Source of the DNA: Janibacter sp. DB-40
Lineage (GTDB): Bacteria; Actinomycetota; Actinomycetes; Actinomycetales; Dermatophilaceae
Length of the DNA: 64,000 nucleotides
Direction of reading: 5' to 3'
Assembly: GCF_029510815.1 (NCBI RefSeq)
Contig: NZ_CP120360.1
Span: forward strand, 1,116,001 to 1,180,000
Of this stretch, positions 9,264-53,177 are shown in pieces (within the stretch, counting starts at the first letter, position 1; every line of letters starts with the position of its first letter). Under the pieces are notes generated by a model that had not been told where the DNA came from, searched no databases, and saw only the letters and a list, made by a program, of their open reading frames with translations. The translations under genes and the position numbers were made by a program.

Positions 9264-9400
9264 GCTGCGCTCGGCAGATCCAGACGGAACCCGGTGCGAA
9301 CCCGGGACGGTCCCGCCACTGTGAGCGATCGATTCGCGAGTCAGAAACGTCGGATCCGCTGGCCCGTGCACACGGCGCGGGTCCCTTTCGACCGCGGGGC
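9264..9400 (+). promoter_or_regulatory. Cobalamin (AdoCbl) riboswitch upstream of cobN
   Basis: The conserved core is readable: GGAACCCGGTG followed by GAACCCGGGACGG, TCCCGCCACTGTGA (the B12 box region, about 9311-9324), and a distal GTCAGAAA segment. The element lies 30-165 bp before the cobN GTG and should repress cobN and bluB-cobT when cobalamin is plentiful. A GC-rich stem (GCGGGGC ... GCCCCGC-like, about 9394-9412) lies just before the AAGGAG ribosome-binding site, consistent with translational control. Boundaries are approximate. Confidence 0.88.
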
Positions 9401-15819: not shown

Positions 15820-16642
15820 GCCCTGCTCGGGGCGGCGTGAGCGCGTAGACGTCCATCACCCAGCCGTGCTCCTCGCGCAGCCGGGCACGCAGGTCGACGA
15901 TCTCGTCGATGACGTCGGCCAGGCGCCCGGAGCGCAGCTCCTGCTGGGGCATGCCGACGTAGGCGCCCCAGTGGATGACCGTGTCCGGGTGGGTGTGGGC
16001 GATCTCCCGGCAGTGCAGGTGCCCGTCGAGCATGACGACCACCGTGCCGAGATCCAGCCCGGCGGACTCCGCACGGGTCCACTCGTCGACGAGCCGGCGC
16101 CCGGTCGTGACGTGGACGGGTTCACCGACGCGGTGCAGCACGATCCCGTGGGCGGCGGCGAGGGTCTGGAAGGCGGAGATCCCCGGGATGACCCGGACCG
16201 TGGTGGGGAGGCGCTCACCGATCGCGTCGACGACGCGAATCGTGCTGTCGTAGAAGGCCGGGTCCCCCCACACGAGGAACCCGACGACCGCGTCCGCGGG
16301 CAGCTCCTCGATGACCCGCACGTAGGCGTCGGTCCGTGCGGCGTGCCAGTTGCGCACTCCCTGCGCGTACGCGCCGGAGTCGCGCTCGGCGTCGGGGCCG
16401 CGCCTCGGGTCCGGCACGGTGACGAACTCGTATGGGTGGTCGGCCGGGACGAAGCGGTCGCAGATCGCGCGTCGCACGGCGACCAGCTCGTCCTTCGCGT
16501 CGCCCTTGTCGGCGACGAGGAAGACATCGACCTCGGCCAGCGCCTCGGCGGCCTCGGCGGTCACGTGACCGGGGGACCCGGCGCCGATGCCGATCACCCG
16601 GATTGATCGAACGCTGCCGGGGCGGGCCGTCGGGTTCCTCAT
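15809..16642 (-). CDS. cobF: Precorrin-6A synthase (deacetylating) CobF
   Basis: A 277-residue SAM-dependent methyltransferase that methylates C1 of precorrin-5 with loss of acetate, in the aerobic cobalamin route. Visible motifs are VIGIGAGSPGHVT, LVADKGDAKDELVA, GFLVWGDPAFYDS and VIPGISAFQTLAAAHGI, in CobF order. The ATG at 16642 overlaps the cobQ stop (ATGA), so cobQ-cobF form a two-gene minus-strand unit. The 3' end overlaps the convergent hydrolase-Arr gene by 11 bp. Confidence 0.93.
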   Translation of the reverse strand: MRNPTARPGSVRSIRVIGIGAGSPGHVTAEAAEALAEVDVFLVADKGDAKDELVAVRRAICDRFVPADHPYEFVTVPDPRRGPDAERDSGAYAQGVRNWHAARTDAYVRVIEELPADAVVGFLVWGDPAFYDSTIRVVDAIGERLPTTVRVIPGISAFQTLAAAHGIVLHRVGEPVHVTTGRRLVDEWTRAESAGLDLGTVVVMLDGHLHCREIAHTHPDTVIHWGAYVGMPQQELRSGRLADVIDEIVDLRARLREEHGWVMDVYALTPPRAGLSR

Positions 16643-18105
16643 GGGGTTGCCCCGACCATGGCCACCAGGGCCTCTATGTCGACGTGCGTCTCCAGGGCGT
16701 CGGCGAGGGTGTCGACCATGCGCTCCCGTCGTGCGGCGAAGGGGGTCCCCCCGGCGGGTGCGCGCCAGCCCGACCCGGTGGTGGTCGCCACGTCGGCCAG
16801 GAGCGCGTGCCGGAAGTCGTCGCACTCCAGCGTTCCGTGCCAGATCGACCCGCGGACGGGGCCGAGCGCGTGCCCGCCCGGGAAGTCCTCACCACCGGCC
16901 GGTGTCACGACGCCGTGATGGATCTCGTAGCCCTCGACCGGGTGCCCGCGCCAGCCTCCGGACGGGCGGGCGAGGACCTTCTCCTCGCGGAAGTCGACCC
17001 GTCCGGGGAGCAACCCGAGGCCGGGTACCGCTGGGGGAGAGGGGTGCTCCCCCCCTTCGTCCTCCACGCCGTCGACGATCTCGTCGGTGAGCATCTGGTA
17101 CCCGCCGCAGATGCCCAGGACGGGCGCCCCGCGTCGCGCTCGCTCGACGACGACGTCCGCGAGGCCCGTCCGCCGCAGCCATGCCAGGTCCGAGACCGTC
17201 GCCCGCGAGCCGGGCAGCACGAGCAGGTCCGCCTCCCGGGCGGTGTCGACGTCCCGCGTCACCCGCACGTCCACGCCCGGCTCCGCGGCGAGTGCATCGA
17301 CGTCGGTGGCGTTCGAGGTGCGCGGCAGCCGGACCACCGCGACCGAGAGCTGCCGGTCCGACGTCCCACCGCCGTGCCCCCACGCGCCCACCGAGAGACC
17401 GTCCTCGGAGTCCAGCCACACGTCCTCGAGCCACGGCAGCACCCCGAGGGACGGCATCCCCGTGCGGCGGGTGACCTCCGCCAGACCCGGCTCGAGCACC
17501 GTGGCGTCCCCGCGGAACTTGTTGATGACGTACGCCGCCAGCAGCGGCCGGTCCTCGTCGGACACCAGCGCCCACGTCCCGTACAGCGCCGCGAGCACCC
17601 CACCGCGGTCGATGTCACCGACGAGCACTGTCGGCATCGAGAAGCGTTGCGCCAGACCGAGGTTGACGTAGTCGCCGGCACGCAGGTTGATCTCCGCGGG
17701 AGAGCCAGCACCCTCGCAGACGATGACGTCGTGGGAGGCGGACAGCTCCTCGTACGCGCCGAAGGCGGCGTCGGCGAGGTGCTGCCGGCCGGTCGCGTAC
17801 TCACCGGCACGCAGCTGCCCGGCGGGTCGACCGCGCACGACGACGTGGGCACGCCGGTCGCTGCCGGGCTTGAGCAGGACCGGGTTCATCGCCGACGTCG
17901 CCTCGACGCCGGCCGCCTGCGCCTGGAGGTACTGCGCCCGACCGATCTCGGAGCCGTCGCGGCAGACCATGGAGTGGTTCGACATGTTCTGGGCCTTGTA
18001 CGGCGCGACCGCCAGGCCGCGCCGGGCGAGGACACGGCACAGGCCCGTGACGACGAGGGACTTCCCCGCATCGGAGGAGGTTCCGGTGATCAGCAGTCCG
18101 CTCAC
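16639..18105 (-). CDS. cobQ: Cobyric acid synthase CobQ
   Basis: A 488-residue glutamine-dependent amidotransferase that amidates peripheral carboxylates of adenosylcobyrinic acid a,c-diamide. The N-terminal ATPase domain has GTSSDAGKS (8-16), PYKAQNMSNHSM (35-46) and the CEGAGSPAEINL loop. The C-terminal GATase1-like domain has the nucleophile Cys333 in LGICGGYQML and His423 in IWHGTLE. The length is typical. The ATG at 18105 is divergent from the histidine phosphatase gene 38 bp away, so the two probably share a promoter region. Confidence 0.95.
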   Translation of the reverse strand: MSGLLITGTSSDAGKSLVVTGLCRVLARRGLAVAPYKAQNMSNHSMVCRDGSEIGRAQYLQAQAAGVEATSAMNPVLLKPGSDRRAHVVVRGRPAGQLRAGEYATGRQHLADAAFGAYEELSASHDVIVCEGAGSPAEINLRAGDYVNLGLAQRFSMPTVLVGDIDRGGVLAALYGTWALVSDEDRPLLAAYVINKFRGDATVLEPGLAEVTRRTGMPSLGVLPWLEDVWLDSEDGLSVGAWGHGGGTSDRQLSVAVVRLPRTSNATDVDALAAEPGVDVRVTRDVDTAREADLLVLPGSRATVSDLAWLRRTGLADVVVERARRGAPVLGICGGYQMLTDEIVDGVEDEGGEHPSPPAVPGLGLLPGRVDFREEKVLARPSGGWRGHPVEGYEIHHGVVTPAGGEDFPGGHALGPVRGSIWHGTLECDDFRHALLADVATTTGSGWRAPAGGTPFAARRERMVDTLADALETHVDIEALVAMVGATP

Positions 18106-18772: not shown

Positions 18773-20761
<1,989 letters not shown>

Positions 20762-20859
20762 GCCTCCACCGTCTCACCATGGCGGCTGTCGGGGATATGC
20801 GCACCCGTGCGGTTGGCCCGTGGGTCGGGTGTCGGACCTGGACCGGATCGATCTGCCGA

Positions 20860-20927
20860 GGGTGACGTCGAAGTTCACGCCTGGCCCACGACATACCGTG
20901 GGCCAGGCGTGAAGATCGACGTCACCC
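20860..20927. repeat. Long palindromic repeat, upstream copy (31-bp arms)
   Basis: Arms 20860-20890 and 20897-20927 pair over 31 bp with 2 mismatches around a 6-nt loop (ACATAC). The arms start GGGTGACGTCGA and end CTGGCCCACG. A 65-bp core (20862-20926) is repeated directly at 21902-21966 with 3 differences. The copy ends 54 bp before the start of the AbiEi/DUF559-like gene. Confidence 0.9.
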
Positions 20928-20981
20928 ATGGCTGTGGACAACTGACGGCGCGGTCAGGGGGGCGCCCGGCACGATGAGGCG

Positions 20982-21905
20982 ATGGACCCACAGATCGCGA
21001 CCGTCCTCGGGACGAATCACGACGTCACCTCCACGCGACACCTCCTCGCCCGGGGCGTCGCCCGCCGGGACATCGACCACGCACTGCGTACCGGTGGCCT
21101 GGTGCGGGTGAGACGCAATGCCCTCGTGCGCGGCTCGACCTGGCGCGAGTCGGCGCCGTGGGAGCGTCATGCGCTTCGGGCCCGGGCGGTGATGGCCGGA
21201 GCGAGCCGGGGGAATGCGGTGGTGCTGACCCACCACAGCGCGTTGGCACTCCACGGGATATCGCTGCACGACGTCGATGACCGGGTCCACCTGGCGAGGA
21301 CGGACACGACCCGGGGTCGATCGGATGCCGTCGTGTGCAGCCACCGTCATGTCCCCGAGAGCCAGGTCACCACGGTGGGCGCCGTGCGGGTGGCGACCGT
21401 TGCAGCAGCGTGCCTGCAGGTGGCGGCGCAGTCGGGTGTGGAGTCCGGGCTCGTCAGTCTCGACGACGCGCTCCACCGGCGGCTCTGCCGGTGGACCGAC
21501 GTGGAGTCGGCGTTCACGGACCTGAAGCTGGCCACGTGGTCTCGTGCCGCCAGACAGGTGATGGCTCTCGCCGATGGTCGGACCGAGTCCGCAGCCGAGT
21601 CCCGGACCCGGTGGGCCTTCCATACGCTGGGGTTCCGGCAGCCGACACCGCAGGTGGAGATCCATGACGGGGACGGGGTCTTCGTCGCGCGGGTGGACTT
21701 CCTCTACGAGGACCTGAAGCTGATCGTCGAGGTCGACGGCCTCGGCAAGTACCGGAGTCCGCAGGACCTCGTCGCCGAGAAGCTGCGCGAAGACCGATTG
21801 CGCGAGCTCGGCTACGCGGTCGTGCGTCTGACCTGGGCCGACCTGGACGATCACGTGGTCGTGCAGCGCAAGGTGCTCGACGGGGTTGGTCGAGCGGCAG
21901 CGTGA
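20982..21905 (+). CDS. AbiEi-type winged-helix + DUF559 (PD-(D/E)xK, Vsr-like) protein
   Basis: A 307-residue protein. Residues about 5-60 resemble the AbiEi-antitoxin-type DNA-binding N-terminus (TSTRHLLARGVARRDIDHAL, then VRVRRNALVRG). Residues about 205-300 resemble the DUF559 nuclease-like domain: ARVDFLYEDLKLIVEVDG with Asp239, Glu250 and Asp252, then LREDRLRELGYAVVRLTW, a PD-(D/E)xK arrangement. The middle has an HH-SALALHGI stretch common to this group. The function is unproven. No AbiEii nucleotidyltransferase partner is adjacent. The gene is bracketed by two direct copies of a 65-bp palindrome, the second overlapping its stop codon, which suggests a self-contained cassette. Confidence 0.78.
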   Translation: MDPQIATVLGTNHDVTSTRHLLARGVARRDIDHALRTGGLVRVRRNALVRGSTWRESAPWERHALRARAVMAGASRGNAVVLTHHSALALHGISLHDVDDRVHLARTDTTRGRSDAVVCSHRHVPESQVTTVGAVRVATVAAACLQVAAQSGVESGLVSLDDALHRRLCRWTDVESAFTDLKLATWSRAARQVMALADGRTESAAESRTRWAFHTLGFRQPTPQVEIHDGDGVFVARVDFLYEDLKLIVEVDGLGKYRSPQDLVAEKLREDRLRELGYAVVRLTWADLDDHVVVQRKVLDGVGRAAA

Positions 21906-21966
21906 CGTCGAAGTTCGCGCCTGGCCCACGACATACCGTGGGCCGAGCGTGAAGATCGACGTCACC
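21902..21966. repeat. Long palindromic repeat, downstream copy
   Basis: This 65-bp segment is 62/65 identical to 20862-20926 and in the same orientation, exactly 1040 bp downstream. It begins GTGACGTCGAAGTTC and includes the TGA stop (21903-21905) of the AbiEi/DUF559-like gene. It lies between that gene and the convergent antibiotic-kinase-like gene and could also act as a bidirectional terminator. Confidence 0.9.
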
Positions 21967-21985: not shown

Positions 21986-22882
21986 TCAGTCGCCGAGTGC
22001 CTTGATGATCGAGATCGCGAGCGAGACCCGGTCCTGGTCATCGTCCTCGAGCGCCCAGATCGCGTTGACCACCTCGCGCAGCGCCGCGACCGGCCGGACG
22101 ACGTCCTCGTCGAGACGGGCCACGTCGCACGTGACCTCGACCCGCCGTCGCACCGACCACCGCAGCGACGCACCCGTCCCCATCTCCTCGGCGCGGTTGG
22201 CCAGCAGGGGCGCGACCTCCCACGCGGGGTGCCCGTTGACGGGCTTGGGGTCGATCGCGACCCAGTCGGTGCCGTCGGAGAGGACATTGGCGTAGTGCAG
22301 GTCGCCGTGGAGGAGGCGCACCTCCTCACCGTCCAGGGAGCGAAGGGTGGACCTCGCCCTCCCGAGGACCTGCCGGGGCAGCCGTCGGCCGGCCGGGCGG
22401 GACAGGATCTCCGCCACCCGGGGCGCCAGTGCCGGCACCTGCGGGAGCGGGGCGACGTGCAGGTCGGCGTACAACCCCGCGACGACGGCCACGGCCTCCT
22501 CGTCCCACGGCTGCGACAGGTCCTCGGTCGTCAGCCGCTCGAGCAGCAGGACCGAGCGACGCGGGTCGGCGGACAGCAGACGCACCGCCGAGCGGCCGTC
22601 CCAGGCCCGCAGGGCGAGGTGCTCACCCTCCGCCTCCGTGTGCGGCCACCCGAGCTTGAGCGCGGCCCGCCCGTCGGTCCCTCGCACGGGCAGCACGAGC
22701 GAGCACCGGCCGCTCGTCGGTGCCCCGTCGACCTCGAGGGACCACTCGTCGAGCACGTCCGCGAGCAGGTGGGGGAGGGCGGCCACCCACGCGGCCCCGG
22801 ACGGACCCCCTTCGGCCCCGAGCCCGGCCATGCGCTCGGTGAAGGCAGCGGGTACGAGCGCCGCCGCGTCCTCGACCCTCAC
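21986..22882 (-). CDS. Aminoglycoside/hydroxyurea antibiotic resistance kinase family protein
   Basis: A 298-residue kinase-like protein of the aminoglycoside 6-O-phosphotransferase / hydroxyurea kinase family (APH(6)-like). The catalytic loop HGDLHYAN is at 192-199 and the metal-binding Asp211 is in AIDPKPVNGHP. Lys76 in AALKLGWP is the likely ATP-binding lysine. The length fits the family (about 300). The GTG at 22882 overlaps the stop of the DUF4439 gene (GTGA), so the two are co-translated. The antibiotic substrate, if any, cannot be read from sequence; many chromosomal members have no known resistance role. Confidence 0.83.
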   Translation of the reverse strand: MRVEDAAALVPAAFTERMAGLGAEGGPSGAAWVAALPHLLADVLDEWSLEVDGAPTSGRCSLVLPVRGTDGRAALKLGWPHTEAEGEHLALRAWDGRSAVRLLSADPRRSVLLLERLTTEDLSQPWDEEAVAVVAGLYADLHVAPLPQVPALAPRVAEILSRPAGRRLPRQVLGRARSTLRSLDGEEVRLLHGDLHYANVLSDGTDWVAIDPKPVNGHPAWEVAPLLANRAEEMGTGASLRWSVRRRVEVTCDVARLDEDVVRPVAALREVVNAIWALEDDDQDRVSLAISIIKALGD

Positions 22883-23724
22883 GAGTCGGTCGGGTCGTCC
22901 CCGTAGAGGACCGGGACCTCCAGCGGGAAGAGGTCGCGGGAGAGCCGTTCGGCGGTGACCATCCACTGGGGGACCTCGAGGGCGGCGCTCCGGTCCCCGC
23001 CCAGGCGGGGGAAGGTGCCCGCGTACGCCGCCAGCAGCCGCTCGAAGCTGCGTCGACCGAGCTCCCGGCCCTCCTCGGCGGTCAGCTCGTGGGGCACGTC
23101 GTAGCCCAGGGGTGCGGGCTTGACCGCCTCGCCCGCTGCCGTGGTCTGGCGCACGCTCAGCCGGTGCAGGCCCTTCGCGGCCTCGAGGACCTGCGTCGAG
23201 ACCCGCTCGTCGGTGGCCCTCGCGGCGATGAGGTCCAGCGCGTAGATCGTGGCCAGGGTGGCCCGCAGGGCGTCGGCCGCGGCCTCGCGTGCCTGCCAGG
23301 CCTCGGTGCCGGGCTCGCTCCACAGCTCCTCGTCGCCCGTGACGATCCGGTGGGTCGCGGTCAGCCGGCCGACGAGGGGGAGCACCCCGGGCCCGCAGTC
23401 GCGGATCGACCCCTCGAAGGCGGAGACGACCTCCCCGCTCGTGGCCGGGGCCGTGACGTCTGCCACGAGGTCCTGCGGGACCTGGGCCTCGAGGAGCGCC
23501 TGCCGCAGCAGCTCGGCCCGCTCGTCGGCGTACTGCTCGTCACTGTCCTCGAGCGCACCCAGCATCGCGAGCAGGGCCGACTCGCCGGGGATCGGCTCCC
23601 GCGTCGGGACGAACGGGATGCGCGGCGCGTCGTCCTCCAGGCGGACCCCGCAGCCGGTCAGGGTCGTCACGCCGGCGGCGAGGGCACCGGCGAGGACGAG
23701 TCGGCGACTGGGCGGGACGAGCAC
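22879..23724 (-). CDS. DUF4439 ferritin-like-domain lipoprotein
   Basis: A 281-residue protein beginning with a Sec/lipobox signal: two Arg, a hydrophobic segment LVLAGALAAGVTTLTGC, with the lipidated Cys in LTGC near residue 25. The C-terminal half (ARATDERVSTQVLEAAKG and the preceding helix) is helical and matches the DUF4439 domain, which is often found upstream of and divergent from rimP in actinobacteria, as here. The GTG at 23724 is the start that best places the signal peptide. The function is unknown. Confidence 0.78.
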   Translation of the reverse strand: MLVPPSRRLVLAGALAAGVTTLTGCGVRLEDDAPRIPFVPTREPIPGESALLAMLGALEDSDEQYADERAELLRQALLEAQVPQDLVADVTAPATSGEVVSAFEGSIRDCGPGVLPLVGRLTATHRIVTGDEELWSEPGTEAWQAREAAADALRATLATIYALDLIAARATDERVSTQVLEAAKGLHRLSVRQTTAAGEAVKPAPLGYDVPHELTAEEGRELGRRSFERLLAAYAGTFPRLGGDRSAALEVPQWMVTAERLSRDLFPLEVPVLYGDDPTDS

Positions 23725-49327: not shown

Positions 49328-50593
49328 ATGACCGACAGCACCTCCGTCGTCCGTGACCTGGCCGAGCGGGCCCGCGTCGCCTCCCGCCGGCTCGCGCTGC
49401 TCACCCGGGCGGAGAAGGACGCGGCGCTCCTCGCCCTCGCCGACGCGCTCGACGCGGCCACCGAGGAGGTCGTCGCCGCCAACGGCGAGGACCTGGCGCG
49501 GGGACGCGAAGGGGGGATGGCCACCGGTCTCCTCGACCGCCTGACGCTGGACGCCGACCGTGTCGCCTCCGTCGCGCAGGCCCTGCGCGACGTCGCGGCC
49601 CTGCCCGACCCGGTGGGGGAGGTCGTGCGCGGCTCGACCCTGGCCAACGGCCTGCAGATCCGCCAGGTCCGCGTGCCGATGGGCGTCGTCGGCATGATCT
49701 ACGAGGCGAGGCCCAATGTCACGGTCGACGCGGCCGGGCTCGGGCTGAAGTCCGGCAACGCGATGATCCTGCGGGGCGGCTCCGCCGCGGCGAGCACCAA
49801 CCGCGCGCTGGTCGCCGCCCTTCGCTCCGCCCTGGCCGCGCACGGGCTGCCGCAGGACGCCGTCCAGCTGCTCGAGGGCGACCACGACGCGGTCAAGGCG
49901 CTGATGACCGCCCGTGGCCTGGTCGACCTGCTCATCCCGCGCGGGGGAGCGGGCCTGATCCGGGCCGTCGTCACCGAGTCGACCGTGCCCGTGATCGAGA
50001 CGGGCGTCGGCAACTGCCACGTCTACGTCGACGCCGGCGCCGACCGGGACAAGGCACTGGCCATCACCCTCAACGCCAAGACCCACCGGCCCAGCGTGTG
50101 CAACGCCGCAGAGTCCCTCCTCGTGCACTCGAGCATCGCCGGGGAGTTCCTGCCCCGCGCGCTCGCCGACCTGGCGGCCGCCGGCGTGACGCTCCACGGC
50201 GACGAGCGCACCGTCGAGCTGGCGCCCGAGGGGGTCGAGGTCCTCCCGGCCACCGACGAGGACCACGACTGCGAGTACCTGGCGCTGGAGATGTCGGTCG
50301 CGGTCGTCGACGACGTGGACGCGGCGATGGAGCACGTGCGCCGGCACGGCTCGGGGCACACCGAGGCCATCGTCACCGAGGACCGGGCGGCCGCCCGCCG
50401 GTGGACCGCCGAGGTCGACGCGGCCGCCGTGCTCGTCAACGCCTCGACGCGCTTCACCGACGGTGGGGAGTTCGGCTTCGGCGCGGAGATCGGCATCTCG
50501 ACGCAGAAGCTGCACGCCCGCGGCCCGATGGCACTGCCGGAGCTGACGACGACGAAGTGGATCGTCGAGGGGGACGGGCAGGTCCGCGCCTGA
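49328..50593 (+). CDS. proA: Gamma-glutamyl phosphate reductase ProA
   Basis: A 421-residue aldehyde-dehydrogenase-fold enzyme that reduces gamma-glutamyl phosphate to glutamate semialdehyde. Conserved sequences are [55 protein letters not shown], the catalytic-Cys region [16 protein letters not shown] and [17 protein letters not shown]. The length is normal. A terminator follows directly. Confidence 0.97.
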
Positions 50594-53143: not shown

Positions 53144-53177
53144 ACGAAGGCCCGGACCGATCGGTCCGGGCCTTCGT
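53144..53177 (+). terminator. Perfect 17-bp palindromic terminator after tRNA-Ala
   Basis: ACGAAGGCCCGGACCGA is followed directly by its exact reverse complement, 7 bp after the tRNA 3' end. The next gene's -10 box starts 2 bp later. Confidence 0.8.

Follow-up and report, generated by a model that had tools for sequence, protein, structure and literature searches.

Gene-specific palindromes at both flanks of AbiEi–nuclease fusion genes in Janibacter and other Actinomycetota

RAYT genes are single-copy, vertically inherited genes that are flanked by palindromes of their own and spread them (PMC8049555, PMC3733652). RAYTs are not seen on plasmids (PMC8049555), REP repeats measure 20–40 bp, and the CGTC-tagged REPs, described from five phyla with Actinobacteria not among them, reportedly have no transposase of their own (PMC3733652). 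Two kinds of protein also enter the comparison: in its own promoter the antitoxin AbiEi occupies a pair of 23-bp inverted repeats separated by 3 bp (PMC7319586), and the Vsr-like homing endonuclease I-Bth0305I belongs to the EDxHD family, a name used in PMC6083498. Here we describe a gene of Janibacter sp. DB-40 whose product fuses an AbiEi-like DNA-binding half to a Vsr/I-Bth0305I-like nuclease half, and which lies between two near-identical palindromes in a stretch of 64,000 nucleotides (NZ_CP120360.1, positions 1,116,001 to 1,180,000), called the window throughout. Among the open-access literature matches listed, no title or abstract links DUF559 or AbiEi–nuclease genes to palindromes, and the family-wide, gene-specific bracketing reported below suggests that palindromic repeat elements of an undescribed kind exist in which a nuclease encoded by the element is in charge.

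A fusion gene between two palindromes

The window gene (20982–21905, forward strand) encodes 307 amino acids and stands between an upstream palindrome at 20860–20927 (31-nt arms, 6-nt loop; coordinates converted from locus L023) and a downstream one at 21902–21965 (29-nt arms, 6-nt loop). Aligned as a direct repeat (20859–20926 and 21899–21966), the two agree at 94% over 68 nt with a spacing of 1040 bp; over the 65 nt marked by the first-pass annotation, which had read this locus from its letters, 62 positions are identical. That annotation was also right in folding each copy into a hairpin with arms of about 30 bp, although the arms are imperfect (83–89% complementary), and in placing the stop codon of the gene (21903–21905) inside the second palindrome. 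The folding energy as single-stranded DNA is −42.1 kcal/mol for the upstream palindrome (z −12.3) and −33.6 for the downstream one (z −9.0), values equalled by none of 200 shuffles. A pattern of the 20-nt arm with at most three mismatches has four matches in the window, all within the two palindromes, and none in 100 shuffles. A palindrome scan of the 64 kb at a score of at least 15 returned the upstream copy and a hairpin at 53144 only, the downstream copy scoring 14, and an Rfam search gave no family at gathering score over the window palindromes.

In the predicted structure of the protein (predicted local distance difference test score, pLDDT, 95.6), residues 2–198 (20985–21575, forward strand) have the fold of AbiEi antitoxins (6y8q, Rv2827c), including the winged-helix N-terminus, and an AbiEi model matches residues 13–191. 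The nuclease half, residues 202–307 (21585–21902, forward strand) with E206, D239, E250 and D252, has a Vsr-like catalytic fold whose nearest relative is the homing endonuclease I-Bth0305I (3r3p), and DUF559 matches residues 238–288 barely over its cut-off. The winged-helix N-terminus and the Vsr-like domain with Asp239, Glu250 and Asp252 that had been predicted from the translation are borne out by domain matches, fold and conservation. In an aligned set of 42 proteins, the window protein included, D239 and E250 never vary and D252 reaches a conservation of at least 90%; among 75 Janibacter family genes D239 is found in 75, E250 in 74 and E206 in 73, and among the bracketed ones D239 in 64/64 and E250 in 63/64. 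Conserved catalytic acidic residues of this kind are the pattern of an active nuclease of the restriction-endonuclease fold. The ratio of nonsynonymous to synonymous substitution rates (0.14–0.33 in seven orthologue pairs, custom script) shows purifying selection. Pfam on 42 members, PADLOC on six and the fold showed no transposase family, and an AbiEi domain with a DUF559/MTES_1575/Vsr-like nuclease instead; NCBIfam had no match for six family proteins. A search of phages with the window protein gave no match and one of plasmids a single weak match.

Bracketing across the family and in its own genome

A repeat shared by the two flanks, mostly palindromic, was found at 64 of the 75 distinct family genes retrieved from 16 Janibacter genomes (a few weak or partial matches left out) at blastn E<1e-5, and at 59 of them at the stricter 1e-8. 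Outside the genus, 53/64 named loci of Serinicoccus, Ornithinimicrobium, Kribbella, Rhodococcus, Knoellia, Arthrobacter and others are bracketed, as are 25/29 order-level loci (the best match from each of 29 genomes; the two sets possibly overlap in source genomes) and 3/4 loci in a second set of a phylum-wide draw. Short flanks removed 6 of 70 non-Janibacter named loci and two phylum loci, and ten named Janibacter loci (eight bracketed) were excluded as duplicates of the genus set. The repeats are mostly 45–130 bp long and their sequence varies from gene to gene. The family itself is present in 56 of 59 genomes of the order, with up to 17 matches per genome, and in 24 of 60 genomes of the phylum.

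The controls score far lower. At 1e-5 a shared flank repeat was found for 11/300 uncurated open reading frames (ORFs; stop-to-stop frames of 250–400 codons), 12/285 random window intervals and 1/29 genes of the DUF222 nuclease family (one additional locus was dropped for a short flank); at 1e-8 the ORFs fall to 5/300 and the DUF222 genes to 0/29. Upstream and downstream flanks taken from different family genes match in 13/300 cases at 1e-5, in part because relatives have repeat types in common. Self-palindromic flanks alone were dropped as a measure: at 1e-5 they mark 53/75 family genes upstream and 49/75 downstream, and since random window intervals score too (44/285 upstream), repeats common to both flanks were used. 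At 1e-3 even the shared-flank measure is unspecific (64/285 random intervals), and therefore 1e-5 and 1e-8 are quoted. A few partial members stand unbracketed, two with the AbiEi half only (L370, L372) and two with the nuclease half only (L371, L373). In L072 of genome G011 the family gene is read as two overlapping ORFs with an apparent frameshift, and related repeats are still present on both sides.

The genome of DB-40 (G000) holds nine family genes with a repeat beside each; eight are bracketed on both sides, the exception being L027, where both copies lie upstream. The window palindrome occurs in six places, two at the gene and four solo, and ORF inspection around the four found no recognisable family gene nearby. 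Palindromes away from family genes, which in large number the first-pass annotation would have counted against a cassette, are thus present to some extent. The palindromes that stand on either side of the paralogues at 742157 and 1578454 differ wholly in sequence from that of the window, and the repeats of eight own-genome genes gave no cross-matches when compared. At L026 tandem arrays on both sides replace the simple palindrome; its short unit, containing CCTAAGCAGTTGC, is the most abundant of these own-genome repeats, with 30 places in 1.26 Mb of G000, the gene's own included. Of the eight other family genes, the seven compared with the window gene share only 20–38% identity with it, and a recent full-length copy was accordingly not seen among them.

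A de novo palindrome scan of 1.264 Mb (38% of the genome) is a non-random sample, because the stretches were picked for family genes or known solo copies, and is strict enough to miss less perfect brackets. It gave 133 long palindromes with 12 multicopy families, of which five have a copy at a family gene, namely all four 5-copy families and one of the three 4-copy ones. Similar palindromes 300–3000 bp apart form four pairs, and three of these bracket a family gene (the window gene, L024 and L025). The fourth spans more than one ordinary ORF and is terminator-like.

Change, gain and loss of the repeats

The two flanks of each gene evolve in concert. In the window group the flank identity is 0.84 within a locus and 0.55 between orthologues, and none of the 55 between-pairs reaches the lower within value; three further groups give 0.86/0.57 (0/6 pairs), 0.86/0.68 (2/45) and 0.86/0.45 (0/15), and unrelated palindrome pairs 0.50, where the within-locus values cover bracketed genes only and are biased upward because the best cross-hit defines the repeat. 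The two copies are direct in 32 and inverted in 32 of 64 cases, with flips among orthologues. Similarity of proteins and similarity of palindromes are correlated at a modest Mantel r of 0.28, a value not reached in 2000 permutations. In the single group tested, that of L025, the hairpin arms change by compensation: among 17 hairpins, which are not independent because both flanks of the same loci are included, pairing holds in 93.5% of cells, both sides have changed in 11 of 20 pairs, and the covariation score is reached by 0/500 shuffles and is lower for slid structures. Repeats of the L025 class have most matches in the gene-bearing genomes G015 (35) and G008 (32), with both strands mixed, and L050 of G003 has the L025 repeat type and a gene slightly outside the L025 clade. 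In repeats of the L025 group (flanks of L050–L053, L059 and L063) the large hairpin is accompanied on its outer side by a small one with the sequence GGGTCACCC or a variant of it, and the two hairpins together make inverted terminal copies of 84–92 bp.

Low-copy solo palindromes and whole units vary in presence between species, although the genomes are species representatives and events are thus viewed at a coarse distance. The neighbours of the window gene, a Thioredox_DsbH/DUF255 gene on the left (18773–20761, reverse strand) and one of the APH_6_hur kinase family on the right (21986–23323, reverse strand), serve as locus markers in relatives. An orthologue occupies this locus in 10 of the 16 species, the contig of G003 ends there, and in G001, G005 and G011 the orthologue is located elsewhere. 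At the empty sites, other sequence takes up about 30 bp in G004, about 400 bp in G001 and G005 and about 1.1 kb in G011, and in G002 the stretch is short and holds a solo palindrome that is unrelated; as judged by eye, the cognate palindrome is absent from all five. At the MaoC locus 21–26 bp separate the matched ends of the neighbours in G009, G010 and G012, and these empty sites likewise lack the cognate palindrome; G001 has a solo palindrome of other sequence there, and other sequence fills the sites of G003, G004 and G011. A palindrome scan of six HisC sites that lack the gene gave hairpins at two of them (G002 and G009), unrelated in both cases, and no hairpin reaching the scan score at the other four. 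Empty sites with a single copy, which the first-pass annotation had proposed to look for, are thus mostly not found: of the sites inspected, only the HisC site of G001 keeps one L026-type unit (by eye). Excision to a single-copy scar was considered; together with the solo palindromes of other sequence in G002 (window locus) and G001 (MaoC), this unit is too little to claim it. One solo palindrome family of G002 has two copies 92% identical (L112, 1404–1453; L140, 2623–2672); both loci carry the nuclease unit in other species, and no cognate gene was identified.

Some orthologues at conserved loci are without a repeat pair, namely L032 and L039 (window locus), L044 (MaoC) and L068 (HisC), so that conserved synteny without the repeats, named beforehand as an argument against a cassette, does occur in part. 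In G006 the orthologue of L024 has lost its downstream palindrome by a deletion that takes the last codons too. Between G000 and G006 the aligned part (399/832 windows with hits) holds 23 length differences of 35–600 bp, and five of them are family-type repeats (by eye): an L027-type repeat at 49648 and L026-type repeats at 140688 and 999584 in G000 only, and a window-type palindrome at 1004770 and an L061/L064-type repeat at 740482 in G006 only. L026 of G000 and its closest relative L076 of G006, which is narrowly below the bracket threshold, lie in different neighbourhoods, and their alignment runs from repeat to repeat only. The cassette proposed by the first-pass annotation is therefore partly supported, as a unit of protein and palindromes, bracketed family-wide and present or absent as a whole between relatives, and not as a simple cut-and-paste cassette.

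Elsewhere in the window, the hairpin at 53144–53177 is perfect and follows a tRNA match (RF00005, 53064–53136), a Cobalamin riboswitch match lies at 9286–9348 (RF00174, 42.9 bits), and the ORF at 16639–18105 resembles a cobyric acid synthase, as judged from its translation.

Possible explanations and known systems

A REP/RAYT-like relationship suits these findings better than a simple cut-and-paste cassette does, and we give about even chances to the reading that the gene and its two palindromes are the unit of such a system with a nuclease as the enzyme. The predicted recognition of the palindrome by the protein is, in our judgement, quite probable: two long arms with a short loop between them suit an AbiEi-type domain, because AbiEi binds two close inverted repeats, and the AbiEi-like half would bind as a pair in which each arm takes up one monomer, in the manner of AbiEi at its 23-bp repeats. 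A putative action of the nuclease at the palindrome we judge somewhat probable; the Vsr/I-Bth0305I-like half may nick or cut there, probably only at an extruded or single-stranded hairpin, because intact sites reside in the host chromosome. Repair templated by the other copy would then homogenise the two flanks and occasionally leave a copy elsewhere, while gene and palindromes would change together under mainly vertical inheritance. Repeated cutting with templated repair would yield the likeness of copies 1 kb apart, and the orientation flips could follow from the same process because a palindrome pairs in either direction. A wider reading, to which we give slightly less than even chances, is that these units form a new and, within Actinomycetota, widespread class of palindromic repeat elements, in which the fusion of AbiEi and a Vsr/homing-type nuclease would keep its own pair alike by cut-and-repair and seed solo copies; with the same reserve, the system may repeatedly evolve new recognition sequences, mostly of 45–130 bp.

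Several observations weigh against this reading, in which both binding and cutting of the palindrome by the protein are steps that we infer. The phylum-wide draw was bracketed at only 10 of 21 loci (5 of the 11 misses are partial genes), and 11 of the 75 genus genes have no repeat pair, yet E206, D239 and E250 are kept in all 11. The concert of the flanks and the protein–palindrome correlation are subject to the upward bias and the modest size given above, and in G006 the upstream palindrome has more mismatches. Repeats of the L025 class have 3–11 matches in G003 and G011–G014, none of which has an L025-clade gene, and none in G002. In the examined part of DB-40 the repeat of L021 has no solo copy and that of L028 one, and 7 of the 12 multicopy families, several of them terminator-like, have no copy at a family gene in a scan region selected to contain all nine. 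Finally, inspection by eye of the sites that differ between species showed no clean target-site duplication, in junctions that the species-level distance blurs.

The rival that survives best, which we nevertheless consider unlikely, is an autoregulated nuclease, in which the palindromes are AbiEi-type operators of the gene's own promoter, the downstream copy is a looping operator or a terminator, and the target of the nuclease lies elsewhere, for example in phage DNA. The match of the N-terminal half to AbiEi, the 54 bp between the upstream palindrome and the start codon, and the likeness of arms and loop to the AbiEi promoter site (PMC7319586) all favour it. Solo copies away from any family gene do not fit such operators, nor does the equal frequency of direct and inverted copies, and a consensus scan found no terminator-like site at the window locus. 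If the palindromes are only operators, the finding would be a variant of AbiEi autoregulation. A unit moving like an insertion sequence, by cut-and-paste or copy-and-paste with the palindromes as its ends, is improbable: besides the lack of a clean duplication (at one differing site there is an overlap of 2 bp between aligned segments) and of a recent full-length copy, the same locus is occupied in most of the species and the repeat orientation varies among orthologues.

I-Bth0305I is known from an intron context. A classical homing endonuclease gene sitting in its own target would suit this closest fold of the nuclease half, and we hold it to be very improbable, as the palindrome is not present as an intact target at the empty sites of the window and MaoC loci and the occupied locus has two intact copies, not one interrupted. 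That the palindromes are host repeats or terminators beside which the genes just insert is just as improbable in our view, since the repeat–protein correlation, the concerted flanks and the unbracketed DUF222 nuclease genes speak against it, even though solo palindromes adjoin unrelated genes and most multicopy families of the scan have no copy at a family gene.

If the REP/RAYT-like reading is true, AbiEi–DUF559 fusions, found in nearly all sampled genomes of the order, would gain a concrete candidate role, and a nuclease would be seen to take the place of a transposase in the upkeep of palindromic repeats. The family would then be an independent counterpart of REP/RAYT, and would offer a candidate enzyme type for palindromic families with no assigned enzyme. 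More than 100 natural pairs of protein and DNA site, co-diversified, would also be a resource on how domains read long palindromes.

Among the known systems, the type IV AbiE antitoxins share the fold of residues 2–198 and the expectation of long inverted-repeat binding sites, whereas here the nuclease domain is fused, the repeats stand on both sides of the gene and no AbiEii (DUF1814) toxin gene lies beside the window gene, its neighbours matching Thioredox_DsbH and APH_6_hur. Unlike at I-Bth0305I, intact palindromes flank the gene and the empty alleles of the window and MaoC loci are without them. The CGTC-tagged REPs are comparable as palindromic repeats reported without a known enzyme (PMC3733652), although they are short and show no sequence link to the repeats described here. 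REP/RAYT (REPtrons, REPINs) differs in its enzyme, a HUH/Y1 tyrosine transposase in place of the AbiEi–Vsr-like fusion, and in its repeats, which here are longer, of low copy number and, by eye, without a common tetranucleotide tag. The enzyme falls outside all families tested, and the newness of the system depends on the steps of binding and cutting. In its anatomy the system comes closest to the REPtron: like REP/RAYT and the TIRtrons, these genes are mainly vertically inherited, have their own palindromes or terminal repeats at the flanks, and are accompanied by dispersed solo copies (PMC3733652, PMC8049555).
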